Origin: Micromonospora echinofusca
Lineage (GTDB): Bacteria > Actinomycetota > Actinomycetes > Mycobacteriales > Micromonosporaceae
Assembly: GCF_900091445.1 (NCBI RefSeq)
Contig: NZ_LT607733.1
Span: 5,669,001-5,733,000, forward strand
Direction of reading: 5' to 3'
DNA length: 64,000 nt
Below, one piece after another: positions 5,127 through 28,951 of the stretch (its first letter is position 1; every line of letters starts with the position of its first letter). The notes below the pieces were generated by a model. The model did no database searches. It was given only the letters and a program-made list of their open reading frames with translations, and was not told where the DNA came from. The position numbers and the translations under genes were made by a program.

Positions 5127-5375
5127 ATGACGACTCCAGCTGACCTCGACACGACGATCGCGAAGTACGCGTCGGTGGCCTTCGACGACTCGACCCCCCT
5201 GCTGGAGGCCGGACTCGAATCGCTGTCCCTGCTGCGGCTCGCCGTCGAGCTGGCCAACGACGACGACGCCGAGATCGACGCCACCCGCCTCGTGGACCTG
5301 CGCACGGTGGGTGACCTCAAGCAGTGGCTACGCGAGCTGAGCGCCGTGGGCGCCGAGACCGGAGGCGCACGGTGA
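5127..5375 (+). CDS. Free-standing acyl/peptidyl carrier protein (ACP1)
   Basis: Carrier protein of 82 residues that would hold a substrate on a 4'-phosphopantetheine arm. The attachment serine is Ser32 in EAGLESLSLLRL, where the usual DSL is ESL. It is the first gene of the operon, with GGAAGCAGGG just upstream of the ATG as a plausible ribosome site. Its stop overlaps the GTG of the NRPS gene by 4 bp. The partner loading enzyme cannot be read from sequence; one of the orphan A enzymes is likely. Confidence 0.85.
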   Translation: MTTPADLDTTIAKYASVAFDDSTPLLEAGLESLSLLRLAVELANDDDAEIDATRLVDLRTVGDLKQWLRELSAVGAETGGAR

Positions 5376-8300
5376 CCACGACGGCCGGGACCCAGCTCGC
5401 GGCGGAGACCGCCCCGGAGCGGCTGCCGATCACCGAATCGCAGAAGGGGCTGCTGGTCGTCAACGAACGCTCACCCGGGCGCGCCGTCTACAACCAGCTC
5501 GTCCGGTTCGACATCGACCCGTCGATCCCCGACGAGACGATCGAGCGCGCGCTCGCCACGGTCGTCGCCGTTCAGCCGGCCATGCGCCAGGTGTTCGGGC
5601 TGCTGCCCGAGATGCACGCCCGGCTCACCCCGCCCCCACGGGCGGAGGACTTCCCGCTCGAACGGGTCACGGCCCGCCGACGCGACTTCGAGGAGGCGGT
5701 CGGCGCGGCCCAGCGGCGCATCGGCCGACCGGAGTTCGACCTGGCCAACGGCCCCGCGTACCGGTTCGCCATCGTCCGGTGCCTCGACGAGCCCCGCGTG
5801 GCGGTCCTCATGTGCGACCACCACATCATCCTCGACGGCGTGTCGATGGGGCCCCTGGTACGCGACCTCCAGGAGGCGCTGTCCGGACGCCTCGCCGGGG
5901 CGGAGATCGAGCAGCGGCGCGCCGCCCGCGAGAAGGCCTTCGTCAAGGAGCTGGCGGCGCAGAACCGCACCGCCACCTCCGACCGCGTCGTCGAACGGTC
6001 CCGGGAGTGGGCGGCCCGGCTACGGGAGGTCCCGCCCCTGGTGCTGGCGCCCCTGCCCGGGCGCGCCGCGCAGACGGAGTTCACCGGCGACCGGGTGAGC
6101 TGGTACCTCAGCCAGGCCGAGACGGCAGCGCTGTCGGAGACCTGCCGGCGGCTGGAGATCTCCCCGTTCGTCTTCTTCTCCGGCATCTACGGCACCGTGC
6201 TGGCCCGGCACGCCAACGTGTCCAGCGTCCTCGTCGGCAGCCCGTTCATGGCCCGCCGCACGATCGGCGCGTTCGACCTCGGCGGATTCTTCGTCAACAC
6301 GCTGCCGGTCACCGTCGACGTGGAGTGGAGCCGCACCGTCGACGAGCATCTCGGCAAGGTGGTCCGGGAGTCCATCGACTTCTGCCGCGCGAACGTCGAC
6401 GTCACCTTCAACCGCCTCGTCGCCGACGTACGGCCCGACCGGTCCAGCAACCGCAACCCGCTGTTCTCGGCGATGCTCGCCATGCAGGACACCTTCACGC
6501 CGGAGCCGGGCGGAGCGGTGCTGCGGGTCCTGGAGCCCGGCAACGGCACCGCCAAGTTCGACCTCTGGCTGGGCGCCACCCCGGTCGACGGCCGCTGGCT
6601 GCTCGAACTCGAGTACGACCGGCAGCTCATCGCGCCGGTGGTCGCCGACGGGCTGCTCACCTCGCTGCGCGACGCCGTACGCGGGGCGGTCTCCGACGGC
6701 TCGTGCCGGCTCGGTGACCTCTTCGCCGACGCCTCCGCCGCCGCCAGCGTCCGCTCCGACGGCTGGACCAGCCCACTGACCGGCGACACGCCGTGGGACT
6801 GGGTGTCGGCGGCGGCCCGGCGGCGGCCCGACGCCCCGGCGATCGAGGACCCGACCCGCCGGCTCGACTACCGCCAACTGCTGGCCGAGGCCGAGCGGAT
6901 CAGCGCCGGGCTCGCCGCGCACGGGGTCGGCCCCCGGGCCGTGGTTGGTCTGGCCGCGACGACCCTCTGCGACACGGTGACCGCCATCCTGGCCATCCTC
7001 GGCCGGGGCGCGGCGTACCTCCCGCTGGACCCGGGGCTGCCCGCCGAGCGGCTGGAGTACATGGTCCGGCGGGCCGGCTGCGAGTTCGTCGTCGGCGAGG
7101 CGCTGGTGCCCGACGTGCCCACGGTCGCGGTGGCGGACCTGGCCGCCACGACGGAGCCGGTGCCCGAATCGCTGGCCGACCCCGCCGCCCCGATCTACGT
7201 CATGTACACGTCGGGCTCCACCGGGCAGCCCAAGGGCGTCCAGATGGGACACGGCCCGCTGGCCAACCTCACGAGCTGGCAGATCGCGGCCCTCGCCATG
7301 GACGCCGAGACCCGCTTCCTCCAGTACGCCCCGCTCGGCTTCGACGTCTCCTTCCAGGAGATCCTGCCGACCCTGGCCGCCGGCGGGACGGTGGTCTCCC
7401 GCGAGCCGGCCGACCGGCGGATGTTCACCGCCGTGCTCAGCCGGATCGCCACCACCGAGGTGACGCACGTGTACCTGCCGGTCGCGGCGCTGCGTCCCCT
7501 GGTGCAGACCGCCGCCGCCCGGGGCACCCGGCTGCCCGCGCTGCGCTACCTCTGCGTCTCCGGCGAGCAGCTCACCGTCGACGACGAGATCCGCGACTTC
7601 TTCCTCGCCCACCCGCACTGCACCCTGGTCAACCTGTACGGCCCCACCGAGACCCACGCGGTCACGTCGCACCGGTTGTCGTACCGGGACGCGGTGTGGC
7701 CGACCCACGTGCCGATCGGTCAGCCGTACCCGGGGGTGAGCGCGTACGTGGTCGACGCCACCGGCCACCTCGCCCCGCCCGGCGTCGCCGGCGAGCTGCT
7801 CCTGGGCGGGGACTGCCCCGCCGACGGCTACATCAACGACCCGGAGATCACGGCCGAGAGGTTCGTGCCCGACCGCTTCTGCGGCACTGCCGGCGGGACC
7901 GTGTACCGCACCGGGGACCTCGTGGTCCGCGACGACCGGGGTGACCTGGTCTTCCTGGGGCGGATGGACACCCAGGTCAAGATCCGGGGATACCGGATCG
8001 AGCTGGGCGAGATCGAGACCGTCGCGAACCAGGTCGACGGCGTGCGACAGGCGGTCGCGGTGGTCCGGGGCACCGGCGCCGACCGGGAACTCGGGCTGTT
8101 CGTCCGGCCCGACGCGGACCGCACCGTCGACCCTGAGCAGGTCCGCCAACGGCTGACCACGGCGCTGCCGGTCTACATGCGCCCACTGTGGATCTTCCCG
8201 GTCGACCGGGTCCCGACGACACCGACCGGCAAGACCGACCGCGACGCGCTGCTGCGGATCGCCGACGAGCTGCTGGTCGAGCAGCAGAGCGCCGACACCA

Positions 8301-8563
8301 CCGAGGTCACGTACGCCGACAAGCTGGAGCGCGAGCTGGCCGGGCTGTGGGGCGGGGTGCTCGACGTCGAGGGCATCCGGCCGGACCGCCCGCTCATCGA
8401 GTACGGCGCCCACTCGCTGAACATCTTCACCACCCTCGCCGAGGTGCAGGAACGCTACGGGGTGGCCGTGCCCCTGGTCGACTTCTTCGCCGCGCCCACC
8501 GTGGCCACCCTGGCCGGGCTCGTCCGCGGGGCGCGGGGCGGCGACGCGGCGGTGACGCCGTGA
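5372..8563 (+). CDS. NRPS module, condensation-adenylation-thiolation
   Basis: 1063-residue single-module NRPS. The condensation domain (about residues 15-460) has the catalytic motif HHIILDG at 150-156. The A domain (about 470-960) has TSGSTG at 613-618, NLYGPTET near 755 and a PTGKTD end motif. A carrier domain follows with its serine in GAHSL near 1015. There is no thioesterase or epimerase. The pocket segment FDVSFQEI starts Asp-Val-Gln, a start seen in proline-type codes, but the other pocket positions I could place do not match proline, so no substrate is called. The GTG start at 5372 is chosen because it overlaps the stop of ACP1; in-frame codons upstream lie inside ACP1. The gene overlaps the next by 4 bp. 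Confidence 0.93.
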   Translation: MTTTAGTQLAAETAPERLPITESQKGLLVVNERSPGRAVYNQLVRFDIDPSIPDETIERALATVVAVQPAMRQVFGLLPEMHARLTPPPRAEDFPLERVTARRRDFEEAVGAAQRRIGRPEFDLANGPAYRFAIVRCLDEPRVAVLMCDHHIILDGVSMGPLVRDLQEALSGRLAGAEIEQRRAAREKAFVKELAAQNRTATSDRVVERSREWAARLREVPPLVLAPLPGRAAQTEFTGDRVSWYLSQAETAALSETCRRLEISPFVFFSGIYGTVLARHANVSSVLVGSPFMARRTIGAFDLGGFFVNTLPVTVDVEWSRTVDEHLGKVVRESIDFCRANVDVTFNRLVADVRPDRSSNRNPLFSAMLAMQDTFTPEPGGAVLRVLEPGNGTAKFDLWLGATPVDGRWLLELEYDRQLIAPVVADGLLTSLRDAVRGAVSDGSCRLGDLFADASAAASVRSDGWTSPLTGDTPWDWVSAAARRRPDAPAIEDPTRRLDYRQLLAEAERISAGLAAHGVGPRAVVGLAATTLCDTVTAILAILGRGAAYLPLDPGLPAERLEYMVRRAGCEFVVGEALVPDVPTVAVADLAATTEPVPESLADPAAPIYVMYTSGSTGQPKGVQMGHGPLANLTSWQIAALAMDAETRFLQYAPLGFDVSFQEILPTLAAGGTVVSREPADRRMFTAVLSRIATTEVTHVYLPVAALRPLVQTAAARGTRLPALRYLCVSGEQLTVDDEIRDFFLAHPHCTLVNLYGPTETHAVTSHRLSYRDAVWPTHVPIGQPYPGVSAYVVDATGHLAPPGVAGELLLGGDCPADGYINDPEITAERFVPDRFCGTAGGTVYRTGDLVVRDDRGDLVFLGRMDTQVKIRGYRIELGEIETVANQVDGVRQAVAVVRGTGADRELGLFVRPDADRTVDPEQVRQRLTTALPVYMRPLWIFPVDRVPTTPTGKTDRDALLRIADELLVEQQSADTTEVTYADKLERELAGLWGGVLDVEGIRPDRPLIEYGAHSLNIFTTLAEVQERYGVAVPLVDFFAAPTVATLAGLVRGARGGDAAVTP

Positions 8564-9288
8564 CGACCAGGCTGCCCGGCCGGCTGGTCCCCCTGCTGCG
8601 GCGGGGCGCCCGACCGGCGTGCGTACTGCTGCCGGGCGCCGGCGGCGGGCTGCACCCCTACCTGCGGCTCGCGGCGGCGATCGGCAGGACCCACAACGTC
8701 GCGGCCGTACGCGCGGCCGGCCTGCTGCCCGACGAGGAGCCGGAACTCAGCATCGCCGAGATGGCCGACGCGGCGGCGCAGGCGCTGGACGCGGACGGCA
8801 CGGTCCCGGCGGCCGTCTTCGGCTGGTCCCTCGGCGGCTCGGTCGCCTGGGAGCTGTGCGTCCGGCTGGCCGAGCGGGGGCACCTGCCCGACCTGGTGCT
8901 GGTGGACGCCTCGCCGCTGCCGCGCCGCGCCACGGCCGGCGAGGACGCCCGCGTCCGCGAGACCATCGTCGGGATGCTCGGGCCGCGTCCCGACCCGGCG
9001 ACCGTCGAGCGGGTCCGGCGGGTCTTCGACACGCAGGTCGCCGCCCTCGCGGACTACCGGGCCGACCGGTCGTACGCCGGCCGCGTGCTGATGCTGATGT
9101 GCACCGACGAGGAGTTCGCGTTCCGCGCCGAGGCCGAGGCCCGGTGGCGGGAACTCGCGCCGGAGCTGAGCGCCGGGCGGCTCGACGCGGGGCACTTCGA
9201 CGTCTTCGACCCCGAGCGCCTGCCGCAGCTGGTCGACGAGGTGACGCCGTTCCTCGGCCGGGCCGCCTCCGGGGCGGTGCTGCAGTGA
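8560..9288 (+). CDS. Discrete alpha/beta-hydrolase thioesterase
   Basis: 242-residue hydrolase resembling NRPS thioesterase domains. The nucleophile elbow GWSLGG places Ser at about residue 90, and the likely catalytic His is in AGHFDVF near 211. It may release the product or edit misacylated carriers, as type II thioesterases do. The length and the absence of a linked carrier fit a stand-alone enzyme. The GTG start overlaps the NRPS stop, and the stop overlaps the next start, each by 4 bp. Confidence 0.85.
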   Translation: MTTRLPGRLVPLLRRGARPACVLLPGAGGGLHPYLRLAAAIGRTHNVAAVRAAGLLPDEEPELSIAEMADAAAQALDADGTVPAAVFGWSLGGSVAWELCVRLAERGHLPDLVLVDASPLPRRATAGEDARVRETIVGMLGPRPDPATVERVRRVFDTQVAALADYRADRSYAGRVLMLMCTDEEFAFRAEAEARWRELAPELSAGRLDAGHFDVFDPERLPQLVDEVTPFLGRAASGAVLQ

Positions 9289-10025
9289 GCCCACTGGCGG
9301 TCGTCAGCGGCGGCACCCGGGGCATCGGGCTCACCTTCAGCCGCCGGCTGGTGAAGCTGGGGCACCGGGTGGTCGCGCCGTACCGGAGCGACGCCGTCGC
9401 GGCGGCGTCGGCGGCGGCCGAGCTCGGCGACGCGTTCCACCCCATCCGGCTCGACGTCGCCGACGCCGCCGCGGTCGACGTCGCCGTGGAGACGGTCCTC
9501 GCCGAGCACGGCCCGCCGACCGTGCTGGTGAACAACGCGGGCATCAACGTCGACCGGCCGTTCCTGGAGATGTCGACCGAGGACTGGCGGCGGGTGCTCG
9601 ACACGAACCTCTCCGGCGTCTTCCACCTGACCCGGGGGTTCGCGCCGGCGATGCTGGCGGCCGAGGGCGACGGCGTGATCGTCAACGTGGGCGCCACCAC
9701 CGGCATCCGCCCCCGCCGCAACGGCGCGAACTACTGCGCCAGCAAGGCCGGCCTGCTCCAGCTCACCAAGTGCCTGGCGCTGGAGCTGGCGCCCCGGATC
9801 AGGGTCAACTGCCTGATCCCGGGCATGACCGAGACCGACGAGCTGGTGACGCGGTTCCGGCTGGACGATCCGGCCGCCCGGGCGGCGGTGGTAGCGGAGA
9901 TCCCCCGGGGCCGCATCGGCACCACCGAGGAGATCGCCGACGCCCTGGAGTTCCTCGTCGGGCCGGCGAGCGGATACCTGACCGGGCAGAAGCTGATCGT
10001 GGACGGTGGGCAGTTCATGTGGTGA
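9285..10025 (+). CDS. Short-chain dehydrogenase/reductase (FabG-like) with unusual active site
   Basis: 246-residue SDR with an N-terminal GGTRGIG nucleotide-binding motif, NNAG at the expected place and YCASK at about 150-154, closest in look to 3-oxoacyl-ACP reductases. It would use NAD(P)H to reduce, or NAD(P)+ to oxidise, a substrate that may be carrier-bound. The catalytic serine that should lie 13 residues before the Tyr is an alanine in NVGATTG, with Thr next to it. That could lower activity or let Thr take over. Coupled by 4-bp overlaps on both sides. Confidence 0.85.
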   Translation: MSPLAVVSGGTRGIGLTFSRRLVKLGHRVVAPYRSDAVAAASAAAELGDAFHPIRLDVADAAAVDVAVETVLAEHGPPTVLVNNAGINVDRPFLEMSTEDWRRVLDTNLSGVFHLTRGFAPAMLAAEGDGVIVNVGATTGIRPRRNGANYCASKAGLLQLTKCLALELAPRIRVNCLIPGMTETDELVTRFRLDDPAARAAVVAEIPRGRIGTTEEIADALEFLVGPASGYLTGQKLIVDGGQFMW

Positions 10026-11302
10026 CCGATGTGGACGACATCCTGGACGGCGCGACGCGGGCCCGGGCCGAGCTGCCCCCGCCCGGCGACCGGCGCTACG
10101 ACCGGTACTGCGAGGCGCTCGCCGACCGGCTCTCCTCCGGCTGGGCCGACGTCCTGGCAGCGAACGCCACCGACGTGGCCCGGGGCACCGAGGCGGGCCT
10201 CGGCCCCGAACTGGTCGACCGCCTGGCGCTCGGCAAGCGCCACCTCGACGCGCTGGTCGACCTGATCGCACGCACCCGTGCGGCGCTGCCGGCGGTGACC
10301 GCCCCGACCGCCGGACACCGCGCCGGCAACGGCGCCACCGTACGCCGGCTGCCCAAGCCGCTCGGCGTGGTTCTGATGATCTTCGAGGCCCGGCCGACGG
10401 TGACGGTGGAGGGCGCCCTGCTGCCCGTGGCGGTCGGCAACGTGGCCGTCCTGCGCGGCGGGGCGGAGATCGCGGCCACCAACCGGGCCCTCGCCGTCGT
10501 CGTCGGCCGGGCACTGGAGGACGCGGGGCTGCCCGCCGGCACGGTAGGGGTCGTCATCGACCCCGACCGGCGGCTGGTACGGGCCCTGCTGAAGCGGCAC
10601 GACGCGGTCGACGTCCTCATCCCCCGCGGCAGCCCGTCCCTGATCGACTACTGCCTGACCAGCTCCACCATCCCCGTCATCGCCAGCGGCGGCGGCGTCA
10701 ACCACCTCTACGTCGACCGCAGCGCCGACCTGGAGCTGGCCGCCCGGATCGCCCTGGACAGCAAGCTGGGCGAGCCCACCGCCTGCAACACCCTCGAACT
10801 GGTGCTCGCCCACGCGGACGTGGCCGAGGAGCTGACCCGGGCCCTGCTGCGGGCCGGCGCCGGGCTGACCGAGCCGTGGCTGCTGCGGGTCGACCCCCGG
10901 CTGAGCGCCGTCGCGCCCGCCGGGGCGCCGGTGGCCGAGCTGACCGCAGCCGACGACGGCCGGGAGTTCCTGGAACGCGCGGTCGGCATCCGGCCCGTCG
11001 CCGGCCTCGACGAGGCGGTGGCCCACATCCGCCGCTTCGGTTCCCGGCACACCGAGGGCGTGGTGGCCGCCGACCCGGCCGTCGTGGACGCGTTCCTGGC
11101 CGGGGTGGACGCCGCCGCGCTGGTGGTCAACGGCTCCCTGCGCCTGCACGACGGCCCGACGATGGGGCTGGGACCGGAGCTGTCCATCGCCACCGGCCGG
11201 CTGCACGTACGCGGTCCCGTCGACCTGTCCGCCCTGCTGACCTGGAGCTGGGTCGTCGACGCCGGGGGCCGGCTGCGCGGCGCCGGGACGGAGGAGGCAT
11301 GA
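10022..11302 (+). CDS. ProA-like gamma-glutamyl-phosphate reductase / acyl-phosphate or acyl-carrier reductase
   Basis: 426-residue member of the glutamate-5-semialdehyde dehydrogenase family, close to the family's normal length. It has the ProA segment EARPTVTVEGALLP, the nucleotide-binding GNVAVLRGG and the catalytic Cys near residue 255 in EPTACNTLE. ProA reduces gamma-glutamyl phosphate to the semialdehyde with NADPH. No gamma-glutamyl kinase is encoded nearby, so in this operon it may use an imported acyl phosphate or a thioester on the carrier encoded next. GTG start and stop both overlap neighbours by 4 bp. Confidence 0.85.
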   Translation: MTDVDDILDGATRARAELPPPGDRRYDRYCEALADRLSSGWADVLAANATDVARGTEAGLGPELVDRLALGKRHLDALVDLIARTRAALPAVTAPTAGHRAGNGATVRRLPKPLGVVLMIFEARPTVTVEGALLPVAVGNVAVLRGGAEIAATNRALAVVVGRALEDAGLPAGTVGVVIDPDRRLVRALLKRHDAVDVLIPRGSPSLIDYCLTSSTIPVIASGGGVNHLYVDRSADLELAARIALDSKLGEPTACNTLELVLAHADVAEELTRALLRAGAGLTEPWLLRVDPRLSAVAPAGAPVAELTAADDGREFLERAVGIRPVAGLDEAVAHIRRFGSRHTEGVVAADPAVVDAFLAGVDAAALVVNGSLRLHDGPTMGLGPELSIATGRLHVRGPVDLSALLTWSWVVDAGGRLRGAGTEEA

Positions 11303-11568
11303 CCGACCGGGCCCGGATCAACGAGGCGGTGAAACGGCTGGTCGTACGCGAGTCGCGGCTCGCGGTCGACCCCGCCACGGTCGACGACCTCGAACCGCTC
11401 AACGGCGACCTGCTGCGGGTCAACTCGCTGGGCTTCCTCGGCATGCTCGTCCGCCTCGAGGACGAACTCGACGTGACCCTGCCGGACGACATCTTCGCCG
11501 GGCGGGTCTTCACGACCGTCGCCGACCTGGTCGACGTCGTCGCGGACGTGGTGAAGGAGGAGTCGTGA
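11299..11568 (+). CDS. Free-standing carrier protein with NSL instead of DSL (ACP2)
   Basis: 89-residue acidic four-helix-type carrier. The expected attachment site reads RVNSLGFLGM, with Ser43 preceded by Asn rather than Asp. GGAGG lies 4 bp before the ATG, and ATGA overlap couples it to the ProA-like gene. Position between the reductase and the TrpB-like enzyme suggests it carries an intermediate for one of them. Whether the changed motif is still modified by the local PPTase is not known. Confidence 0.8.
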   Translation: MTDRARINEAVKRLVVRESRLAVDPATVDDLEPLNGDLLRVNSLGFLGMLVRLEDELDVTLPDDIFAGRVFTTVADLVDVVADVVKEES

Positions 11569-12906: not shown

Positions 12907-14145
12907 ATGGTCGTTGTGCCTGCGGTGCCGACGCGCAGCCGGGAGTGGACGCCGGTGCTGACCGGTCTCCGCGCCGACCTGCTGGACTGCGTACAGGTGA
13001 ACCTGGCCGCGCTGGCGGACCGGGCCTACGGGCCCGGGGCGCACCTGGCGCTCGGTGCCACCCTGCGGTTCGCCACCGTCGTGGGGCCCGCCGGTACGCC
13101 GGCGGTGACCGCGTCGGTCGAGCAGCGGCTCACCGAGGCGGCCGACCTGCTCGGCCTGCGGGTCACCCGGCGCTGGGACGACGTGCCCGGCGCGCGGCTG
13201 CGCGAGCTGCTCGCGGAGCACTCGCCGCTCTACGTGGTCGCCGACACGTTCACCATGAGCTGGCTGCCGTACGCCGGCAACCAGCACATGGAACACAGCT
13301 TCCTGCTGGTCGACGCCGGCGAACAGTGCGTGGTGGTCGACGGCTACCACAACTCCACGCAGTGGGGCGACGCGCGACCGGGGACCTGGCGGATGTCGGC
13401 CGCGGACTTCGACGCCGCGGTGCCCCGGGCGACCGCGATGACCGTCGCCGCCGACGGCGCCCCGGTGCTCGACCGGGCGACGGTCCTGCGCGACAACGCC
13501 GCCGCGCTGCGCGCCGGGGCGGACCGGATCGAGGACTACCTGACGGCGGTCCGACGGCGGGCGGGCGAGGCGGAGGCGGCGGCCCAGCTGGTGCTCGACG
13601 TGTGGCTGCTCGGCCGGTCCCGGGCGCTGCACGCCGCCTGGCTGGCCGGCGACCCGGCCACCGCCGACGCGGCGCGCGAGGCCGCCGGTCGCGCCGACGC
13701 CTGGCTCGCCCTGGCCGGGCAGAGCTACGTGGCGATGCGCCGGGTCCGCCGGGGCGGCGTCTTCCCCACCCCCGTCCTCGACCAGCTCGACGGCCTGCTG
13801 CGCGACGACGTGGCGCTCGCCGGTCGGCTCGCCGACGCCGGACCGGTGCCGCCGCCGCAGGACGGGCCGGCCGCCGACCCGGGCCGGATCCGCGCGGTGC
13901 TCGCCGACGAGGTGCGCGCCGTGCTCGGGGTGGGCCCGGAGGTGCCGGTCGAGGGGCGTCCACTGCGGACGCTGTCCGGCTTCAACTCGTTCCGGCTGGT
14001 CGAGGTGATCGAGCGGGCGGAGGCCCGGCTGGGGGTGGAGCTGGACCCGGACGACCTCACCGGGACGGCCCTGCACGACCTCGACTCGCTGGGTGCCGTG
14101 TTCGACCGGGCCCGCCCGGCGGCGCAGGGGGTGTCGGGCCGGTGA
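12907..14145 (+). CDS. BtrH-like acyltransferase fused to a C-terminal carrier domain
   Basis: 412-residue protein that I read as a BtrH_N-type domain plus a carrier domain. The N-terminal part has an early Cys (Cys28 in LLDCVQVNLA), a central HMEHSFLLVDA region and VVVDGYH, the Cys/His/Asp pattern of the papain-like BtrH fold that moves an acyl group from a carrier to an amine in butirosin synthesis. The last 90 residues look like a carrier, with Ser361 in SGFNSFRLVEV. A fused transferase and carrier is unusual. GAAGGG precedes the ATG by 6 bp. The stop overlaps the ligase start by 4 bp. The family assignment is from motif pattern only. Confidence 0.65.
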   Translation: MVVVPAVPTRSREWTPVLTGLRADLLDCVQVNLAALADRAYGPGAHLALGATLRFATVVGPAGTPAVTASVEQRLTEAADLLGLRVTRRWDDVPGARLRELLAEHSPLYVVADTFTMSWLPYAGNQHMEHSFLLVDAGEQCVVVDGYHNSTQWGDARPGTWRMSAADFDAAVPRATAMTVAADGAPVLDRATVLRDNAAALRAGADRIEDYLTAVRRRAGEAEAAAQLVLDVWLLGRSRALHAAWLAGDPATADAAREAAGRADAWLALAGQSYVAMRRVRRGGVFPTPVLDQLDGLLRDDVALAGRLADAGPVPPPQDGPAADPGRIRAVLADEVRAVLGVGPEVPVEGRPLRTLSGFNSFRLVEVIERAEARLGVELDPDDLTGTALHDLDSLGAVFDRARPAAQGVSGR

Positions 14146-21087: not shown

Positions 21088-22653
21088 ATGCAGACCCGTA
21101 CCCTCTACGACTGGTTCCGTACGTCGGCCCGGCAGCACCCGGACAACGTGGCGATCGAGGTCGCCTCGGACGCACTGACCTACGCCGAGTTGCGGGCCGC
21201 GGCCGAGCGGTTGTCGGCCGCCATGCAGCGGGTGCCGGGGCGGCCACCCCGACGGGTCGGGCTGCTCACCTCCCGCAGCCTCGTCGGCTACATCGCCTAC
21301 CTGGCCGCCCTGCGGCTGGGCGCGACGGTGGTGCCGCTCAATCCCGCCAACCCGGCGGCCCGCAACCTCGCCATCACCGACGAGGCGGACCTCGACCTCG
21401 TCATGGTCGACGACACCTCCGGCGACGGGCTGGCCGAGTTCCGCGCGCAGACCACCGTGCGGGTCCTCGACCTGACCGGTGAGGGCTGGCGCCGGTTCCT
21501 CGCCCCGGGCCACGCGACGGAGATCCCGCCGGCCGTGGAGCGGGGCCGCGACGACTTCGCGTACATCATCTTCACCAGCGGGACCACCGGGAAGCCCAAG
21601 GGCGTGCCGGCGACGCACGCCAACGTCGACTCGTTCCTCACCGAGGTGATCAAGCGGTACCGGTTCCGGCCCGAGTCGCGGGTCTCGCAGACCTTCGAGA
21701 TGTGCTTCGACGGCTCCATCCTGGCGATGTTCGGCGCGTGGGGCACCGGGGCCACCCTGTGCGTGGCCCAGCGCGGGGACGTGCTGACGCCGGTGCGCTT
21801 CATCAACACGAAGCGGCTCACGCACTGGCTGTCGGTGCCGTCGCTGATCTCGTTCGCCAAGCGGCTGCGGGCGCTGGCGCCGGAGAGCATGCCGACCCTG
21901 CGGCTGAGTTCCTTCGGCGGGGAGCCGCTCACCATCGAGCAGGTCAACGACTGGACGGCGGCCGCGCCGAACACCGCCGTGATCAACTGCTACGGCCCGA
22001 CCGAGACCACGGTCATCGTCACCGCGTACGAGGTGCCCGCCGACCCGGCCGCGCGGATCGAGTCGTCGAACCGCTCGGTGCCGATCGGGGACATCTACCC
22101 GCACCTCGACTACGTGCTGCTCGACGAGGACCTGCGCCCGTGCGACGACGGCGAGCTGTGCGTCCGCGGCGAGCAGCGCTTCCCCGGCTACCTGGACCCG
22201 GCCGAGAACGCGGGCCGCTTCGTCTCCTTCGACGGCGAGCGGGGTCGCCTCTACGACGGCACCGGGCCGTTGACCGCCGAGCACTGGTACCGCACGGGCG
22301 ACCGGGTCCGCCGCGAGTTCGGCGAACTGGTGCACCAGGGCCGCATCGACCACCAGGTGAAGGTGCGCGGCAACCGCGTCGAGCTGGCCGAGATCGAGGC
22401 CGCGCTGCGCGCCCACGCGGACGTGGTGGAGGCGGTGGTGCTCACCGTCGCCGGCGACGACGGGGAGCTGGACCTGCACGCCGTCTACACGGGCGCGTCG
22501 CTGGCCGACGACGACCTCACCCGGCTGGTAGGGCACCTGCCGCCGTACATGCGGCCACGGGCGTTCCACCACCGGGCGGAGATCCCGCTGACCGAGGTGG
22601 ACAAGGTCGACCGCAAGCGGTTGACCTCCGAGCTGCTCGCCACCCGTGGCTGA
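21088..22653 (+). CDS. Stand-alone amino-acid adenylation enzyme, paralogue of the 1460-3013 product
   Basis: 521-residue A domain with FTSGTTGKPKG near residue 161, CYGPTETTV and a C-terminal lysine in EVDKVDRKR. It shares length and many framework stretches with the leftward A enzyme, such as HWYRTGDRVRRE, but the pocket segment CFDGSILAMF differs, so the two probably activate different amino acids. AAGGA lies 7 bp before the ATG. The 8-bp overlap with the following C-T-TE gene, which lacks an A domain, makes it the likely in-trans loader of that module. Confidence 0.88.
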   Translation: MQTRTLYDWFRTSARQHPDNVAIEVASDALTYAELRAAAERLSAAMQRVPGRPPRRVGLLTSRSLVGYIAYLAALRLGATVVPLNPANPAARNLAITDEADLDLVMVDDTSGDGLAEFRAQTTVRVLDLTGEGWRRFLAPGHATEIPPAVERGRDDFAYIIFTSGTTGKPKGVPATHANVDSFLTEVIKRYRFRPESRVSQTFEMCFDGSILAMFGAWGTGATLCVAQRGDVLTPVRFINTKRLTHWLSVPSLISFAKRLRALAPESMPTLRLSSFGGEPLTIEQVNDWTAAAPNTAVINCYGPTETTVIVTAYEVPADPAARIESSNRSVPIGDIYPHLDYVLLDEDLRPCDDGELCVRGEQRFPGYLDPAENAGRFVSFDGERGRLYDGTGPLTAEHWYRTGDRVRREFGELVHQGRIDHQVKVRGNRVELAEIEAALRAHADVVEAVVLTVAGDDGELDLHAVYTGASLADDDLTRLVGHLPPYMRPRAFHHRAEIPLTEVDKVDRKRLTSELLATRG

Positions 22654-25075
22654 GCAGGGCGCCGGGGCCGTCCCCGAACCGGTCCCGGCCACCGCGATGC
22701 AGGAGGCCCTGTGGTGGGTGCACCAGCGGGCCCGCGACCGGTCCGTCTACCACCTCACCTGGCGGCTCGGGGTGGACGAGCCACTCGACGAGGCGGCGCT
22801 GGCCGTCGCCTGGCAAGCGATGGTCGACCGGCACGAGGCGCTGCGGACCTCGGTCGTACGGCACGCGGACGCCGTCACGCTGATGGTGGCGCCCCGCGTC
22901 GCCGTCGGCCTGCACCGGCTGGAGGTGGACGACCCGGGGGACGCCGACCCGGGCACCCTGCTGCGGCTCGTCGCCGAGGAGGTGCACGCCGCGCCGGTGG
23001 ACCCGGAGGCAGCACCGCTGGCCCGGATCACCCTGGCCCGGGTCGGCGACCGGCACGAGGTGCTGCTGACCGTGCACCACATGGTGCTCGACGGCTGGGC
23101 GGTCCAACTGCTCGTCGGCGAGCTGTCCGAGACGTACGCGGCCGTGCGGGAGGGGCGTGCCGTGAGCTTCCCGGCCGACCCGGTGCCGTTCAGCACGTAC
23201 GCCCGGGAGCAGGCCGCGGCCCGCGCGGACGGCCGGTGGGACAAGAGCCTGGCGTACTGGTGCGACGCGCTCGCCGGCGCCGCCTCCGCCGTCCTGGAAC
23301 CCGACCTGCCGGGCGAGGTGACCAGCGGCGCACCCGGCGCGATCCTGCGCTACGGCTTCAGCGCCGAGGCGGGCGCCGGGATCGCGGCCCTGGCCAAGGC
23401 CACCTTCGCCACCCCGTTCGCGATCATCCTCGCCGCGGCGCAACTCGTGCTCGCCCGGGCCGGCGCCGGGCCGGACGTGGCGGTGGGCGTGGTGACCGCG
23501 AACCGGATGACCACCCGCGACCAGGCGTTGCTCGGCTACACCGCGAACCTCTGCGTGGCCCGGGCCAGGGTCGCCGAGGCGGACACCGTCGTCGCGGTGG
23601 TGGGTGCCGCCCGGGACGGCATGTGGCAGATGCTGACCCACCAGGCGGTGCCGTATCCGGTGGTGTTCGGGGCGCTGCCCGAGCAGACCCGGGCGGCCCT
23701 CGGCGACCCCGCGCCGCTGCTGCTGAGCTACCTCGGCCCGATCGGCACCGACCTGCGGATCGGCCCGGTCCCGGCGACGCTGCTGCCCAGCCCGAACCGG
23801 GCCGCCCGGGCCGACGTGGCGATGTCCGTCTGGGAGGCCGACGGCGGCTACCTCGCCGAGATCGAGTACCACACCGGACGCTACCGGGAGAGCAGCGTGC
23901 TGGCGCTGCTGCACGACCTCGACGCGGTGCTGGCCGACGGCGGCGCCGAGCCGCAGCGTACGGTCGGCTCGTTCGAGGTCGCGACCCGCGCCCACGCCGG
24001 CCGCGCGGCCCCGGCCGCCGCGGACCGCGACCCGGCGGCCGGCCCGCTGCCCGAGTCGGCGGACTGGCGCCACGTCGTCGCCGCCTGGACCGACGTGCTC
24101 GGCGCCCGACCGGCGGGGCCGGACGTCGACTTCTTCGCCGCCGGCGGCAACTCGCTGAGCGCCCTGCGCCTCGTGGACGCGCTGGCCGCCGGCGGGAGGC
24201 CGGCGGTGGACGTCGTGCGATGGCTGGGCGAGCCGACCCCCCAACGGCTGACCGACCTGCTGGGCGGCGGGCCCGAGCCGGTCCCGGCGGAGTCGACGCT
24301 GGTGCGGCTGCGGGACGGCTCGGGCCCGCACCTGCACCTGGTGCACGGCGCCGGGGGCAGCCCGCAGGACTACCAGGACCTGCTGGCGGAGCTGCCGGAG
24401 CACTGGCGGGTGACGGCGTCCCGCGACAGCGCGCAACTGCCGACGGTGCCGGAGCTGGCCCGCCGCTACCGGGCCGACCTGGACGCCGCCGGCCTGGTCC
24501 CGGACCTGCTCGGCGGGTGGTCGTTCGGCGGTCAGGTCGCCTACCAGATGGCCGCCGACCAGGTCGGGCGGCGTTCGGCGCTGGTACTGCTGGATTCCGC
24601 CCCGCCGGTCGGGTACGAGCTGCCGGCCGACGACGTCCGGCAGCGCTTCGACACCTTCACGGAGAACGTCCACCGGGCCCTCGGCCTGGAGCCGGACGCC
24701 CCGAGGCCCCGCGTGACGGGCGGCGCGGAGCCGGGCGGCTTCGACGAGCGGCTGGCGGTCGGCGCGCTCGCGGCCTGCCTGGCGGCCGTCCGGCAGCCCG
24801 TGCCGACGGCGCTGCTGGCGCACCGGTGGCGCAGCTACGAGCGCCACCTGCGGGCCAGTGCCGGGTACGTCCACGACGGCCCGGTCGACACCCCCGCGCT
24901 GGTGATCGGCGCGGACCTGCTCGACGCGCAGCTCGCCCAGTGGGCGGCCCGCGTCGGGGCGGCCCGGTCCCACCGCATCGGCACCGACCACTTCGGAGTG
25001 CTGCACTCCGCCGCCGTGGCGCAGGTAGCGGCGGCCGTCATCGATTTCGCACGCGTCGCGGCGGCGCGAGGTTAA
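22646..25075 (+). CDS. NRPS termination module, condensation-thiolation-thioesterase, no A domain
   Basis: 809-residue protein. The condensation domain has HHMVLDG near residue 144; a carrier domain has GGNSL with Ser near 503; a thioesterase has GWSFGG (Ser near 627) and a late His in TDHFG near 782. There is no adenylation domain between C and T, so the carrier must be loaded by another protein, most simply the A enzyme encoded just upstream. The C domain would join the chain from the C-A-T module and the thioesterase would release it. GTG start with an 8-bp overlap. Confidence 0.9.
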   Translation: MAEQGAGAVPEPVPATAMQEALWWVHQRARDRSVYHLTWRLGVDEPLDEAALAVAWQAMVDRHEALRTSVVRHADAVTLMVAPRVAVGLHRLEVDDPGDADPGTLLRLVAEEVHAAPVDPEAAPLARITLARVGDRHEVLLTVHHMVLDGWAVQLLVGELSETYAAVREGRAVSFPADPVPFSTYAREQAAARADGRWDKSLAYWCDALAGAASAVLEPDLPGEVTSGAPGAILRYGFSAEAGAGIAALAKATFATPFAIILAAAQLVLARAGAGPDVAVGVVTANRMTTRDQALLGYTANLCVARARVAEADTVVAVVGAARDGMWQMLTHQAVPYPVVFGALPEQTRAALGDPAPLLLSYLGPIGTDLRIGPVPATLLPSPNRAARADVAMSVWEADGGYLAEIEYHTGRYRESSVLALLHDLDAVLADGGAEPQRTVGSFEVATRAHAGRAAPAAADRDPAAGPLPESADWRHVVAAWTDVLGARPAGPDVDFFAAGGNSLSALRLVDALAAGGRPAVDVVRWLGEPTPQRLTDLLGGGPEPVPAESTLVRLRDGSGPHLHLVHGAGGSPQDYQDLLAELPEHWRVTASRDSAQLPTVPELARRYRADLDAAGLVPDLLGGWSFGGQVAYQMAADQVGRRSALVLLDSAPPVGYELPADDVRQRFDTFTENVHRALGLEPDAPRPRVTGGAEPGGFDERLAVGALAACLAAVRQPVPTALLAHRWRSYERHLRASAGYVHDGPVDTPALVIGADLLDAQLAQWAARVGAARSHRIGTDHFGVLHSAAVAQVAAAVIDFARVAAARG

Positions 25076-25088: not shown

Positions 25089-25847
25089 GTGTTCGACTCG
25101 AGAGTCTTGTACCAGGAACTGCGGGAGCACGTGGAGCGCGAGGTGGCGCCGGACGACATCGCCACGGCCCGCCGCGACTTCTCGTACCTGGGGCACGCGA
25201 AGGTCTCCTTCGTCGCCCCCGACAGCGTCAAGAAGGCGGTCGCCGACGAGGTCAACGAGCTGATCGACAAGGCGGGCACGCGACGGGACCTGCGGTTCGC
25301 CGAGACCGACTACACGCCGCGCCGGATGCGCAACGTGACGCGGGCGGAGATCGCCGACCTGGGCACCGTGATCAGCGGGATCTACACGGCGGAGCCGATC
25401 CTGCGGGTGTTGTCGGAGGTGGCCGGCGAGCCGGTACACCCGTGCCCGTACGAGCCGGAGCAGTTCGTCATCACCTGCCTGGAGAAGGACGGCGACACCC
25501 ACGGCTGGCACTGGGACGACTTCACCTTCGCCCTGGTCTGGGTGGTGGAGTGCCCGCCGGTGGAGCACGGCGGCTTCGTCCAGTGCGTGCCCGGCACCAC
25601 CTGGAACAAGAAGCGTCCGGAGATCAACCGTGCGCTGGTCAGCCGCCCCATCTACTCGATGGAGTTGTTCCCCGGCGACCTGTACCTGATGCGGACCAAC
25701 ACCACGCTGCACCGGGTCGCCCCGGTCCGCCAGGGTCGCCGCAAGATCATCAACATGGGGTACGCCTCCACGTCCGACCTGACCCGCGACTTCACCCACG
25801 AAACCATGGACCAGCTGTGGGCCACCGCGCCCGCCGGAGAGGTGTGA
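25089..25847 (+). CDS. Non-haem iron / 2-oxoglutarate-type oxygenase (amino-acid hydroxylase-like)
   Basis: 252-residue protein with an HWD facial-triad motif in HGWHWDDFTF near residue 140, a second metal His in TLHRVAPV near 209 and a basic GRRKIINM afterwards that could bind 2-oxoglutarate. It recalls the BesD/HalD family, whose halogenases have Gly instead of Asp; the Asp here predicts a hydroxylase. A strong AAGGAGG lies 5 bp before the GTG start. Probably hydroxylates an amino-acid building block or the product. Substrate unknown. Confidence 0.72.
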   Translation: MFDSRVLYQELREHVEREVAPDDIATARRDFSYLGHAKVSFVAPDSVKKAVADEVNELIDKAGTRRDLRFAETDYTPRRMRNVTRAEIADLGTVISGIYTAEPILRVLSEVAGEPVHPCPYEPEQFVITCLEKDGDTHGWHWDDFTFALVWVVECPPVEHGGFVQCVPGTTWNKKRPEINRALVSRPIYSMELFPGDLYLMRTNTTLHRVAPVRQGRRKIINMGYASTSDLTRDFTHETMDQLWATAPAGEV

Positions 25848-25852: not shown

Positions 25853-27079
25853 ATGTCGTCTCGGAACAACATCGCCCCCCAGCACATCGTGCTCGCCTTC
25901 TCCGGCGGGCTCGACACCTCGGTGGCCCTGGTCTGGCTCAAGGAGCGCTACCGCTGCCGGCTGACCGCGTTCATCGCCGACCTGGGCCAGGGCGAGGAGC
26001 TGGACAACGCCGCCCGCAAGGCCGAGAAGCTCGGCGCGGACGAGGTGCGGGTGGTCGACCTGCGCGAGGAGTTCGCCCGGGACTACGCCTTCCCGATGTA
26101 CCGGGCCAACGCCCTCTACGAGGGGCAGTACCTGATGGGCTCCTCCATCGGCCGGCCGCTGATCGCCGCGGCACAGGTGCGGGTGGCCGAGGAGGTCGGC
26201 GCCGACGCCGTGGCGCACGGGGCCACCGGCAAGGGCAACGACCAGATCCGCTTCGAGATGACCTTCGCCGCGCTGCGCCCCGACCTCACGGTGATCAGCC
26301 CGTGGCGGGAGTGGGACCTCGCCTCCCGCAGCGACCTGCTCGCCTACGCCGGACGGCACGGCATCGAGCTGGACCTGAGCAGCGGCGAGCGGCCGTACTC
26401 CATCGACAGCAACCTGCTGCACACCTCGTACGAGGGCGAGGCGCTGGAGGACCCGGCGCAGCCCGCGCCGGAGGGCCTGCTGTTCCGGGTGCGCGACATC
26501 GCCGACACCCCGGACGAGCCCGAGACCGTCGAGATCCACTTCCAGGGCGGCAACCCGGTCGGCGTCAACGGGACGCCCCTGTCGGCGAGCGCCGTGCTGG
26601 AGGCGCTCGACGAGATCGGCCGCCGGCACGGGATCGGCCGCCTCGACATCGTGGAGAACCGGATCTTCGGCATGAAGACCCGCAACATCTACGAGGCGCC
26701 GTCGGGCAGCCTCCTCTGGCACGCCCACCGGGCGGTGGAGTCGCTGGTGCTCGACCCGGAGGTGGCGCAGCTCAAGGAGGAGCTGATGCCGAAGTACACC
26801 GCCCTGGTCTACCGGGGCCTGTGGTTCGCCCCCGAGCGGCTGATGTTGCAGACGGCCATCGACTTCAGCCAGCAGGACGTCACCGGCGACGCGATCCTGC
26901 GGGTGCACCGGGGAACCGTCCAGGTGATCGGCCGCCGCTCCCCGCACAGCCGCTACGACACCGCGTTCGCCACCTTCGAGGCGGACGACGTGTTCGACCA
27001 GCGCGACTCCTCCGGCTGGCTGCGGGTCAACACCGTCCGCTTCCGGGCCGGGCGGGCCAACGGGACGGCGAAGCCGTGA
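25853..27079 (+). CDS. Argininosuccinate synthase-like ligase
   Basis: 408-residue ArgG-family enzyme with the PP-loop AFSGGLDTSV near the start and GATGKGNDQIRFE, both typical. ArgG joins citrulline and aspartate using ATP. Several usually conserved stretches are altered: MGSSIGRPL, IDSNLLHTSYEGE and GSLLWHAHR, and no argininosuccinate lyase is encoded nearby. It may form an argininosuccinate-like or other C-N bond in the product rather than serve arginine synthesis. GGAGAGG lies 10 bp before the ATG; an upstream in-frame GTG at 25844 overlaps the previous stop but lies too close to that ribosome site. Confidence 0.85.
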   Translation: MSSRNNIAPQHIVLAFSGGLDTSVALVWLKERYRCRLTAFIADLGQGEELDNAARKAEKLGADEVRVVDLREEFARDYAFPMYRANALYEGQYLMGSSIGRPLIAAAQVRVAEEVGADAVAHGATGKGNDQIRFEMTFAALRPDLTVISPWREWDLASRSDLLAYAGRHGIELDLSSGERPYSIDSNLLHTSYEGEALEDPAQPAPEGLLFRVRDIADTPDEPETVEIHFQGGNPVGVNGTPLSASAVLEALDEIGRRHGIGRLDIVENRIFGMKTRNIYEAPSGSLLWHAHRAVESLVLDPEVAQLKEELMPKYTALVYRGLWFAPERLMLQTAIDFSQQDVTGDAILRVHRGTVQVIGRRSPHSRYDTAFATFEADDVFDQRDSSGWLRVNTVRFRAGRANGTAKP

Positions 27080-27996
27080 GGATCGTCTTCTTCGGCTACG
27101 GCGAGCTGGGCGCCACCGTGCTGCGGGGCATCGCCCCGCACCACGAGGTGCTGCTCGTGCTGACCCACCGGGCCGAGTTCAGCGGCCTCGGCGAGCCGGA
27201 CGTGGAGCTGGCCGCAGCCGAACTGGGACTGCCGGTGCGCTACTCGGCCACCGCCCGCGAGCCCGACCTGCACGAGCAACTGCGCGACCTCGCGCCGGAG
27301 GTCATCGTCTCCACCAACTGGCGGACCCGGGTGCCGGCGGAGGTGCTGCGGATCCCGGAACGCGGCGCGATCAACACGCACGACGCGCTGCTGCCCGCGT
27401 ACGCGGGGTTCGGTGCGGTCAACTGGGCGATCCGCAACGGCGAGGAGGAGACCGGCCTCACCGTGCACTACATGGCGGAGGAGCTGGACACCGGGCCGGT
27501 CATCACGCAGACCCGCGTGAAGATCGGCCCGTACGACACCGCCGGGCTGATCCTGGACCGGCTCCTCGCGGAGTACGTGCCGGTCACGCTTCAGGCGTTG
27601 GACCGGGTCGCCGAGGGGCACCGGGGCGAGCCGCAGCCGCCCGAGGGGGCGTCGTTCTACCACCGGATCGGGGTCGAGGACACCCGGATCGACTGGCGGG
27701 ACAGCGCCACCACGATCTGCAACCTGGTACGCGGCCAGTCGGACCCGTTCGTCAACGCGTGGACGACGCACCGCGGGCTCCGGCTCTGGGTCAAGGCCGC
27801 CGCCCGGCCGACCCGGGCGCACGGCGGCACGCCCGGCCGGATCGTCAAGGCCGACTACGGCGGCGTGGTCGTCGCCAGCGGCGGCCCGGGCGACGGCGAC
27901 GACCGTGGGGTGGTGCTGCTCCAGGTCAGCACCGAGACCGGCCCACCCGTGCGCGCCCTCGACTACTTCACCACCTTCGGCGAGTACCTTCACTGA
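27076..27996 (+). CDS. Fmt-like formyltransferase
   Basis: 306-residue protein of the 10-formyltetrahydrofolate-dependent transferase family. The catalytic Asn-His pair is in INTHDALLPAYAG (His near 101) and the Asp in EELDTGPVI near 137. A C-terminal Fmt-like domain follows. In antibiotic clusters such enzymes formylate amines or N-hydroxy-ornithine; the housekeeping role on Met-tRNA is unlikely here because it sits in the operon with a 4-bp overlap. Alternatively it could act as a deformylase-type hydrolase. Confidence 0.82.
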   Translation: MRIVFFGYGELGATVLRGIAPHHEVLLVLTHRAEFSGLGEPDVELAAAELGLPVRYSATAREPDLHEQLRDLAPEVIVSTNWRTRVPAEVLRIPERGAINTHDALLPAYAGFGAVNWAIRNGEEETGLTVHYMAEELDTGPVITQTRVKIGPYDTAGLILDRLLAEYVPVTLQALDRVAEGHRGEPQPPEGASFYHRIGVEDTRIDWRDSATTICNLVRGQSDPFVNAWTTHRGLRLWVKAAARPTRAHGGTPGRIVKADYGGVVVASGGPGDGDDRGVVLLQVSTETGPPVRALDYFTTFGEYLH

Positions 27997-28020: not shown

Positions 28021-28050
28021 TCGCGCTACGACGATGACGGGAGAGGTCGG

Positions 28051-28422
28051 ATGATCGGTCGACTGCACTCGGTGGTGCTGGACTGTCCGGACGCCGAGAA
28101 GTTGGCGGAGTTCTACGTCGAGCTGACCGGCCTGGAATGGGCCGACAGCGACGGGTACTGGGTGACGTTGAAGGGCTCGGACGGGCATCCCCGCCTCTGC
28201 CTGCAGAGCGTCGCCGACTACCAGCCGCCGCAGTGGCCGGATCCGACCTTCCCGCAGCAGGCCCACCTCGACGTGGAGGTGGACGACATCCAGGAGGCCG
28301 AGCAGGCCGTGCTCCGGCTGGGTGCCACCCTGCTGCGCGGTGGCGGGAGCCGCAACCACGGCTTCCGGGTCTACGCCGACCCGGTGGGGCACCCGTTCTG
28401 CCTGGTGTGGGGTCAGGACTGA
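28051..28422 (+). CDS. VOC-superfamily (glyoxalase-like) protein
   Basis: 123-residue protein of two babab-type repeats, starting IGRLHSVVLDCPD and ending DPVGHPFCLVWG, as in small glyoxalase/bleomycin-resistance-like proteins. Possible metal ligands include His6 and a late Glu/His, but I cannot assign a reaction. It may be an isomerase, a binding or resistance protein, or unrelated to the cluster. GGGAGAGG precedes the ATG. Confidence 0.8.
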   Translation: MIGRLHSVVLDCPDAEKLAEFYVELTGLEWADSDGYWVTLKGSDGHPRLCLQSVADYQPPQWPDPTFPQQAHLDVEVDDIQEAEQAVLRLGATLLRGGGSRNHGFRVYADPVGHPFCLVWGQD

Positions 28423-28426
28423 CGCC

Positions 28427-28951
28427 ATGACCAACCAGGACCAGGCGGTGGAGTTCCGCCGTACCGCGGGCGCGTTCGCCACCGGCGTCGGCATCGTCAG
28501 CAGCGTGCACGACGACATTCCGCTGGCGATGACGGTCAACTCGTTCACCACCGTGTCGCTGCACCCCACCCTGGTCCTGACCTGCCTGAAGCACCGGAGT
28601 CGACTGCTCGCCCAGATCCGCGACTCCGGCATCTTCGCGGTCACCGTGCTGGCGGCGGACCAACGGGACGTCGCCCGTTGGTTCGCCGACGCCCGGCGGC
28701 CCTCCGGCGCGGCCGCGTTCGCTGGCGTCCGGGTGCACCGGGCGCCGGCGACCGGCTGCCTCGTGTTCAGCGAGGGGCTGGCCTACTTCGACTGCCGGGT
28801 GCGCGACCTCTCCGACCAGGGCGACCACTCGGTGGTCATCGGGGAGGCGGTGTCCTACGGCGCCCTGCACCCGACCAAGGCGCCGCTGCTCTACCTGCAC
28901 GGGTCGTACCGGTCGATCGCGGCGGCGCCCTCGGCGGCGTCCGCCGCGTAG
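28427..28951 (+). CDS. HpaC-type flavin reductase
   Basis: 174-residue flavin reductase domain protein, with FRRTAGAFATGVGIV at the start and GDHSVVIGEAV near the end, both typical of the family that reduces FMN or FAD with NAD(P)H and releases it to a monooxygenase. The only flavin-dependent candidates in the cluster are the two ACAD-like proteins at 17131-19450, which would then be group D monooxygenases. It starts 4 bp after the VOC stop. Confidence 0.88.
   Translation: MTNQDQAVEFRRTAGAFATGVGIVSSVHDDIPLAMTVNSFTTVSLHPTLVLTCLKHRSRLLAQIRDSGIFAVTVLAADQRDVARWFADARRPSGAAAFAGVRVHRAPATGCLVFSEGLAYFDCRVRDLSDQGDHSVVIGEAVSYGALHPTKAPLLYLHGSYRSIAAAPSAASAA

Follow-up and report, generated by a model that had tools for sequence, protein, structure and literature searches.

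A conserved actinobacterial gene cluster matching the orphan cluster nrps1, with a predicted carrier-linked beta-alanyl arm

A gene cluster lies towards the left end of a 64,000-nucleotide stretch of the Micromonospora echinofusca genome (assembly GCF_900091445.1, contig NZ_LT607733.1, positions 5,669,001 to 5,733,000 of the forward strand; hereafter the window, whose numbering is used throughout). The host genome was assembled as a single contig 7.0 Mb long. With moderate confidence, we consider this cluster to direct the assembly of a short modified peptide from carrier-linked arms: a beta-alanyl arm whose unit would be transferred by BtrH-fold proteins, an unusual basic amino acid, and a small non-ribosomal peptide synthetase (NRPS) line. 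The underlying observations concern homology, sequence motifs, protein folds, and the order and conservation of the genes; all substrates and reactions, and the product itself, are predictions. Gene families were assigned with Pfam and NCBIfam.

Twenty-two plus-strand genes run from acp1 to a flavin reductase gene (FlvR) at 5127-28951. A sequence-only reading of this DNA had described an unusual hybrid of a small NRPS line and butirosin-like carrier chemistry. All the parts that it named are present (11 of the 22 plus-strand genes, together with the divergent ligase gene lig0), and the short overlaps that it mentioned were recovered with the chosen start codons, at 4 bp in 10 and 8 bp in 3 of the 21 junctions. 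Its inference, that an amino-acid-derived acyl unit is made on carriers and joined to a short peptide, agrees with a BtrK-like decarboxylase and with folds of proteins that handle carrier-bound substrates, but the logic of vicenistatin biosynthesis fits better than that of butirosin, with beta-alanyl from L-Asp rather than gamma-aminobutyrate (GABA) as the expected unit.

The predicted beta-alanyl arm and its proposed transfer

The following genes are assigned to the putative beta-alanyl arm (PLP, pyridoxal phosphate):

14142..15641, plus strand: lig1, VinN-like beta-amino-acid ligase (predicted substrate L-Asp)
15634..16884, plus strand: BtrK-like, putatively VinO-type PLP decarboxylase (best PDB match 2j66, BTRK, E 8.7e-51)
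16892..17134, plus strand: acp3, predicted free carrier of the arm (PF00550)
1460..3013, minus strand: lig0, VinM-like amino-acid adenylating enzyme, divergently transcribed (AA-adenyl-dom)
21088..22653, plus strand: A3, VinM-like adenylating enzyme (best PDB matches 8k4r and 6akd)

The top PDB matches of lig1 were 3wvn (E 3.3e-110, 372 bits) and 3wv4, the next kind of protein scoring 254 bits. We take both entries to be VinN, 3wvn being labelled a non-ribosomal peptide synthetase in the PDB table. The SFDYG and TECKR segments of lig1 line up with their counterparts in 3wvn and were retained in 24 of 25 aligned rows, the sole exception (locus L014) being a different, distantly related ligase with ~35% identity. 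The decarboxylase was confirmed as BtrK-like, BtrK being its nearest relative in the PDB. For lig0, linear gramicidin synthase entries came first, with 8k4r (titled as a VinM-VinL complex) and 6akd just behind.

In vicenistatin biosynthesis, VinN loads 3-methyl-Asp on VinL, VinO decarboxylates it on the carrier and VinM, which activates Ala, Ser or Gly, acts next; the substrate of FlvN is Asp (PMC11284099). No glutamate-mutase family was found among the Pfam matches of the cluster genes, and L-Asp and beta-alanine are therefore the simplest prediction. The lig1-BtrK-acp3 arm is expected to make a beta-alanyl unit from L-Asp: lig1 would load L-Asp on acp3, the BtrK/VinO-like enzyme would decarboxylate the carrier-bound Asp to beta-alanyl-acp3, and the VinM-like lig0 would cap the beta-alanyl amine with a small amino acid. 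The cluster resembles the vicenistatin and fluvirucin systems in having a VinN-like ligase, a free carrier, VinM-like ligases and a PLP decarboxylase that may correspond to VinO. It differs from vicenistatin in that neither a polyketide synthase nor a VinK-type acyltransferase was found among the cluster Pfam matches; BtrH-fold proteins and acyl-CoA dehydrogenase (ACAD)-fold enzymes are present instead:

12907..14145, plus strand: BtrHcp, BtrH-like papain-fold protein with a C-terminal carrier domain (PF14399 sub-threshold, PF00550)
20136..21077, plus strand: BtrH2, second BtrH-like protein (PF14399 sub-threshold)
17131..18288, plus strand: acad1, ACAD-fold flavoenzyme (Acyl-CoA_dh domains)
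18281..19450, plus strand: acad2, ACAD-fold enzyme (NCBIfam matches below cut-off)

The two BtrH-like proteins scored 16.2 and 16.7 bits with PF14399 (BtrH_N), against a Pfam cut-off of 29.7, and this was their only Pfam family besides PP-binding at E values up to 10. Since a search of the whole genome with the PF14399 profile gave no matches, the assignment was examined by fold. AlphaFold models of BtrHcp (pLDDT 89.8) and BtrH2 (pLDDT 90.3) were compared with Foldseek, which matched BtrHcp to AziU2-U3 and CtaG, and BtrH2 to AziU2-U3, CtaG and CcbD. These proteins have roles in aziridine and amide formation, and the titles of the CcbD structures name complexes with a peptidyl carrier protein (PCP) domain and with methylthiolincosamide. 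The likeness is one of fold; identity is only 8-20%, and one copy in the present cluster is fused to a carrier. A candidate Cys/His/Asp set (C28/H130/D145 in BtrHcp, C13/H115/D131 in BtrH2) was conserved in every covering row, the Cys region lying outside 3 of the 34 BtrHcp rows and 1 of the 24 BtrH2 rows, probably owing to late gene-caller starts. The earlier designation of the two proteins as BtrH-like is therefore supported at the level of the fold family, on models and conserved residues, while it falls short of the Pfam cut-off. BtrH2 and A3 form one fused protein in two relatives (L093, 190-2703; L095, 6433-8943). By analogy, the BtrH-fold proteins would transfer the acyl unit off its carrier and onto an amine, a role equivalent to that of VinK in macrolactam clusters.

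The carrier-bound unit may be oxidised beforehand. The best NCBIfam matches of acad2 include PigA and RedW (carrier-bound prolyl dehydrogenases) and MbtN, all far below cut-off, and its E250, presumably the catalytic base, is at least 95% conserved in 32 rows. The enzyme is a probable dehydrogenase of a carrier-bound acyl unit, on which it would act as an alpha,beta-dehydrogenase. For acad1, acyl-CoA dehydrogenases came first among the PDB matches, with DszC/TdsC monooxygenases and DnmZ behind or beside them; in an alignment to 9w60, it has Tyr at the position of the Glu in YEGT. Our guess is that acad1 is a possible flavin monooxygenase, which would perhaps oxidise the carrier-bound unit.

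A reading closer to butirosin was also weighed, in which Glu is loaded, the BtrK relative yields a gamma-aminobutyryl carrier and BtrH transfers the GABA-derived unit. What the cluster would share with the butirosin side-chain pathway (BtrH, BtrI, BtrJ, BtrK) is carrier-bound decarboxylation and acyl transfer. The BtrK relative, with BtrK as its best PDB match, and the BtrH-like proteins, for which BtrH_N is the lone, sub-threshold Pfam family besides PP-binding, speak for it, and in one related locus (L058, see below) the core genes stand by inositol-type and aminotransferase genes, which recalls an aminocyclitol acceptor. Against it, lig1 is nearest to 3wvn, taken here as VinN; the ligases of the present cluster are AMP-forming, whereas BtrJ is an ATP-grasp carrier ligase, and no ATP-grasp match was found among the cluster matches. 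No aminoglycoside genes were recognised among the annotated cluster genes, and the two VinM-like ligases suit capping of a beta-amino group. We judge this reading unlikely, and prefer a beta-alanyl arm of the vicenistatin type.

The putative basic amino acid, further cassettes and the NRPS line

Towards its right end, the cluster carries three genes of amino-acid-modifying families, which follow the second of the two NRPS modules:

5372..8563, plus strand: NRPS module, condensation-adenylation-thiolation (C-A-T; PF00668, PF00501, PF00550)
22646..25075, plus strand: NRPS module, condensation-thiolation-thioesterase (C-T-TE; PF00668, PF00550, PF00975)
25089..25847, plus strand: BesD/HalD-family Fe(II)/2-oxoglutarate enzyme (PF23169, E 1.5e-99)
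25853..27079, plus strand: argininosuccinate synthase (ArgG) paralogue (NF001770, 523 bits, cut-off 334)
27076..27996, plus strand: Fmt-like formyltransferase (PF00551, PF02911)

The BesD-family protein gave a long alignment to BesD (6nie) and shares PF23169 with the BesD-type amino-acid halogenases and a related lysine hydroxylase, but has HWD where BesD has HWG, and HWD was found in all 13 rows. In BesD halogenases the Gly of HxG is the chloride site; by this rule, the enzyme is predicted to be an oxygenase. The ArgG paralogue largely keeps the substrate-site motifs. It shares 41% identity with its nearest paralogue in the host genome, but 54-55% with ArgG proteins encoded by four genomes that belong to other families of the phylum. 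All 13 rows compared for the Fmt-like protein carry N-x-H-D and D-[ST]-G-P. For the motif comparison, 9 of the 17 added ArgG rows were dropped as unreadable (eight on the minus strand, plus L070).

Outside full clusters, the triad was found in the same order in three genomes (L089, 8393-11249; L090, 8697-11486; L091, 8771-11560), with 47-53% identity for BesD and Fmt and 59-60% for ArgG. An amino-acid permease gene adjoins it in both loci checked (L089 and L090), and L089 also holds an ornithine-carbamoyltransferase-like gene. In L092, a more distant ArgG (51%) stands beside carbamoyltransferase and ArgH genes. The natural reading of this distribution is that BesD-ArgG-Fmt forms a small stand-alone cassette. 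It would make an unusual basic amino acid, and the C-A-T / C-T-TE line would join the parts and release the product.

A more specific proposal, which we put forward as speculative and on balance doubtful, is that the triad is a portable formamidine (formimidoyl) amino-acid cassette. The BesD-family enzyme would hydroxylate a basic amino acid such as ornithine, the Fmt-like enzyme would N-formylate the side-chain amine, and the ArgG paralogue would activate the formamide with ATP and couple Asp, after which an ArgH-type lyase of the host would leave R-NH-CH=NH. In nrps1-type clusters (see below), the BtrH-fold proteins, as amide-forming enzymes, would join this residue to the oxidised beta-alanyl unit. 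If true, argininosuccinate chemistry would here be carried out with a formamide in place of the ureide. The carbamoyltransferase-like gene of L089 suits ordinary citrulline chemistry equally well, and the carbamoyltransferase and ArgH genes of L092 likewise weigh against the proposal. No description of a BesD-ArgG-Fmt cassette was found in the open-licence papers searched.

A second set of adjoining genes lies in the left half of the cluster:

10022..11302, plus strand: ProA-like paralogue, glutamate-5-semialdehyde dehydrogenase family (NF001221, 344 bits, cut-off 289)
11299..11568, plus strand: acp2, free carrier protein (PF00550)
11565..12896, plus strand: TrpB2-like PLP enzyme (NF009057)

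The ProA-like protein is 43% identical to the other ProA of the genome and scores below the TIGR00407 cut-off; its C255 is retained, with at least 95% conservation in 21 rows. In the TrpB2-like protein, compared with 6hul and 4qys, Gly replaces the Glu that precedes TGAGQWG, and this Gly was found in 22 of 22 rows. As this Glu is catalytic in TrpB, the enzyme probably departs from the usual TrpB reaction. The ProA-acp2-TrpB2 cassette would supply a further piece of the product.

Conservation of the cluster and its match to nrps1

Third-position GC was 0.86-0.98 in the listed open reading frames holding cluster genes, and close relatives (including L001 and L002) keep the gene order at 64-100% protein identity. 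Because the order is conserved in close relatives, the arrangement is not due to chance, and the genes make up a genuine cluster that bacteria have conserved. It extends to the left of the interval delimited by the sequence-only reading, through lig0, a major facilitator superfamily (MFS) transporter gene and a SARP regulator gene to a RidA-like gene outside the window. Half of the plus-strand genes (11 of 22) had also gone unnamed: those for the type II thioesterase, the FabG-, ProA- and TrpB2-like and the two ACAD-like proteins, the BesD-family enzyme, ArgG, Fmt, the VOC protein and the flavin reductase. The remaining features are:

in G000:C1:5667044-5668409, just left of the window: RidA-like gene (by likeness to Table 3 of PMC7888443)
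1..1370, minus strand, cut by the window edge (G000:C1:5668541-5670370): SARP/AfsR-like regulator (NCBIfam, on the L050 orthologue)
3010..4362, minus strand: MFS transporter (PF07690)
5127..5375, plus strand: acp1, free carrier protein (PF00550)
8560..9288, plus strand: type II thioesterase (PF00975)
9285..10025, plus strand: FabG-like short-chain reductase (PF13561)
19450..20139, plus strand: Sfp-type phosphopantetheinyl transferase (PPTase; PF01648)
28051..28422, plus strand: VOC/glyoxalase-like protein (PF18029)
28427..28951, plus strand: flavin reductase, FlvR (PF01613)
31430-31504, within region 31430-41541: tRNA-Arg(CCT)

Orthologues of the SARP regulator were found in L053, L094, L098, L099, L100 and L102, and of the RidA-like gene in L098, L099, L100 and L102; a RidA protein would suit an enamine intermediate. 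The C-A-T translation contains HHIILDG. To the right of the cluster, the open frames 31699-32889, 34093-34872 and 40297-41523 have translations that resemble transposases by eye, without a family search, and a very large open frame (1377 amino acids) occupies 43077-47210 on the minus strand.

A close form of the cluster was found in nine further genomes (G118, G098, G040, G091, G051, G164, G043, G604 and G718); the named relatives that carry the cluster are Micromonospora deserti and Salinispora fenicalii. The end comprising C-T-TE, BesD, ArgG and Fmt was present in all nine (L043-L049, L093, L095), and the left half was read in seven loci (L050-L053, L094, L001, L002); in G718 (L095) it was covered from the FabG-like gene on, and in G040 only at BtrHcp and the SARP end. 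The VOC gene was found in 7 and FlvR in 6 of the nine. Within the genus, a close form of BtrHcp occurs in 8 of 160 genomes, host included, and the genus prevalence count stands at 27 or more of 160 genomes, with 11 candidates scored per listed genome. The phylum prevalence from profile A1 (2 of 396 genomes) was not used as an estimate, four of dozens of candidates having been scored per listed genome.

The view that no described cluster has this gene order did not survive comparison with the literature. The order matches that of nrps1 of Salinispora tropica CNB-440, an orphan biosynthetic gene cluster of 37.5 kb for which 14 of 33 proteins were detected, several of them raised by photosynthate, and which is listed with no product assigned (PMC7888443). 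The detected proteins are, in Table 3, RidA, MFS, C-A-PCP, FabG, two acyl-CoA dehydrogenases, an adenylation protein, C-PCP-TE, ArgG, Fmt, ClpP, a K+ channel, KorB and KorA; the C-A-PCP protein was predicted to be alanine-specific, with no prediction for the other A domains (PMC7888443). Those from RidA to Fmt are matched in the same order by the present cluster, and the accessions A4X2P5 to A4X2R8, if consecutive, leave exactly its number of intervening genes. In G164 (L053, L048, L097), each of the 21 proteins covered has 83-96% identity to its counterpart, and the cluster is succeeded by ClpP, channel and kor genes, in agreement with Table 3. Compared with nrps1, ClpP stands at the opposite end in M. 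echinofusca; VOC and FlvR genes were not found in G164 and G051. The carrier logic proposed above was not found for nrps1 in the open-licence papers searched. Sare0718, looked at as a possible homologue with experimentally shown specificity for alanine, was dropped from the comparison: its neighbours encode an enoyl-CoA hydratase, a hypothetical protein and a PPTase, and it was placed in none of the predicted NRPS clusters (PMC3360062).

The published proposal for nrps1 is that its product inhibits ClpP and that the nearby ClpP copy, listed as an abundant protein after Fmt, confers self-resistance (PMC7888443). Of the 10 genomes examined, five do have a ClpP gene close to the cluster (G118, G098, G091, G164 and the host, where a ClpP paralogue at G000:C1:5667059-5667631 stands left of the window, in the interval that separates the kor genes from the SARP regulator). 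The same ClpP, however, is found once each in 159 of the 160 genus genomes (E <= 1e-90), against 8 of 160 for close BtrHcp; this near-universality weakens the self-resistance idea. Cluster and ClpP are far apart in G040 and G604 and on different contigs in G051, G043 and G718, and ClpP adjoins kor genes and a potassium-channel-like gene, so that it looks like a core-genome neighbour. We consider the proposal improbable; ClpP is best read as a core gene beside a site where the cluster often sits. The smallness of the NRPS part and the many stand-alone genes of diverse families might suggest that an NRPS remnant has come to lie among unrelated genes in a mosaic that is degenerate or without function, but the open frames, kept motifs and conserved order, with protein detection in S. 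tropica (PMC7888443), make this very improbable.

Apparent reuse of the core, and weight and meaning of the prediction

Thirty loci picked for carrying BtrHcp, with the close relatives L026-L053 excluded, were compared; several are cut short, and all counts are lower bounds. They contained acp3 (at least 28 loci), acad1 (at least 28), acad2 (at least 27), PPTase (at least 22), acp2 (at least 19), a lig0 relative of at least 45% identity (at least 19), TrpB2 (at least 17), BtrH2 (at least 17) and ProA (at least 16). The lig1 and BtrK-like genes co-occur in the same 19 loci, and eight loci have a C-A-T module setting as in M. echinofusca. Elsewhere, the core is found in other company. L014 (3027-15938) carries it without lig1 and BtrK, together with genes for a KamA-like radical S-adenosylmethionine enzyme, a GntC-like PLP enzyme, a NodU-like carbamoyltransferase and an ATP-grasp ligase, and L021 has KamA-like and GntC-like genes with the core; L013 and L017 show open frames sized and placed much as in L014. 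Dapdiamide-synthase-like ATP-grasp genes accompany the core in L015 and L062. In L058 (4611-17599), the BtrHcp-lig1-BtrK-acp3-acad core stands by genes for an inositol-phosphate synthase (myo-inositol-1-phosphate), an inositol dehydrogenase, an inositol phosphatase and a DegT-type aminotransferase, and this locus is a possible acylated aminocyclitol cluster, judged from gene families; L059 and L060 are partly similar, families having been checked on L058 only. Since the loci fall into different gene settings, the core seems to be a module that has been redeployed for different acceptors.

Several observations weigh against assembly from a beta-alanyl arm and BtrH-fold transfer. Eleven of the 30 loci show no lig1/BtrK pair; L025 is broken off, and the other 10 must fill acp3 otherwise. 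FlvR is missing in 3 of the 9 close relatives, and acad1, with dehydrogenases as its best PDB matches, might work together with acad2 and not be an oxygenase at all. Pfam rejects the BtrH assignment, PF14399 being sub-threshold, and with VinK absent the BtrH-fold transfer step is proposed by analogy. A further point comes from three cryptic metabolites of S. tropica that were tied tentatively to nrps1, for two of which a fragment C16H22NO3 was reported (PMC7888443): this fragment holds one nitrogen only and misfits an intact aminoacyl-beta-alanyl group.

Subtraction of C16H22NO3 from the metabolites leaves, by computation, C6H13N3O2, C7H15N3O2 and C6H12N4O3. The first is the composition of N5-formimidoylornithine, for which loss of water would give an ion in agreement with the reported m/z 142.0979; for this ion, PMC7888443 prints C6H12NO3 in its table, with a calculated value of 142.0975 that is the mass of C6H12N3O. 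We regard this match as a coincidence worth testing and not as evidence: other isomers exist, the composition lacks the hydroxyl expected from the BesD-family enzyme, and the connection of these metabolites to the cluster is unproven.

Assembly of a short peptide from carrier-linked arms remains the reading that we favour, and it provides a testable chemical scheme for an orphan cluster that is expressed in a marine actinomycete under intensive study. The comparison points to a small BesD-ArgG-Fmt cassette and weakens the published hypothesis of ClpP as the target. It also suggests that a set of actinobacterial clusters uses beta-amino-acyl carrier logic of the macrolactam type with no polyketide synthase involved, and links this logic to BtrH-fold proteins.

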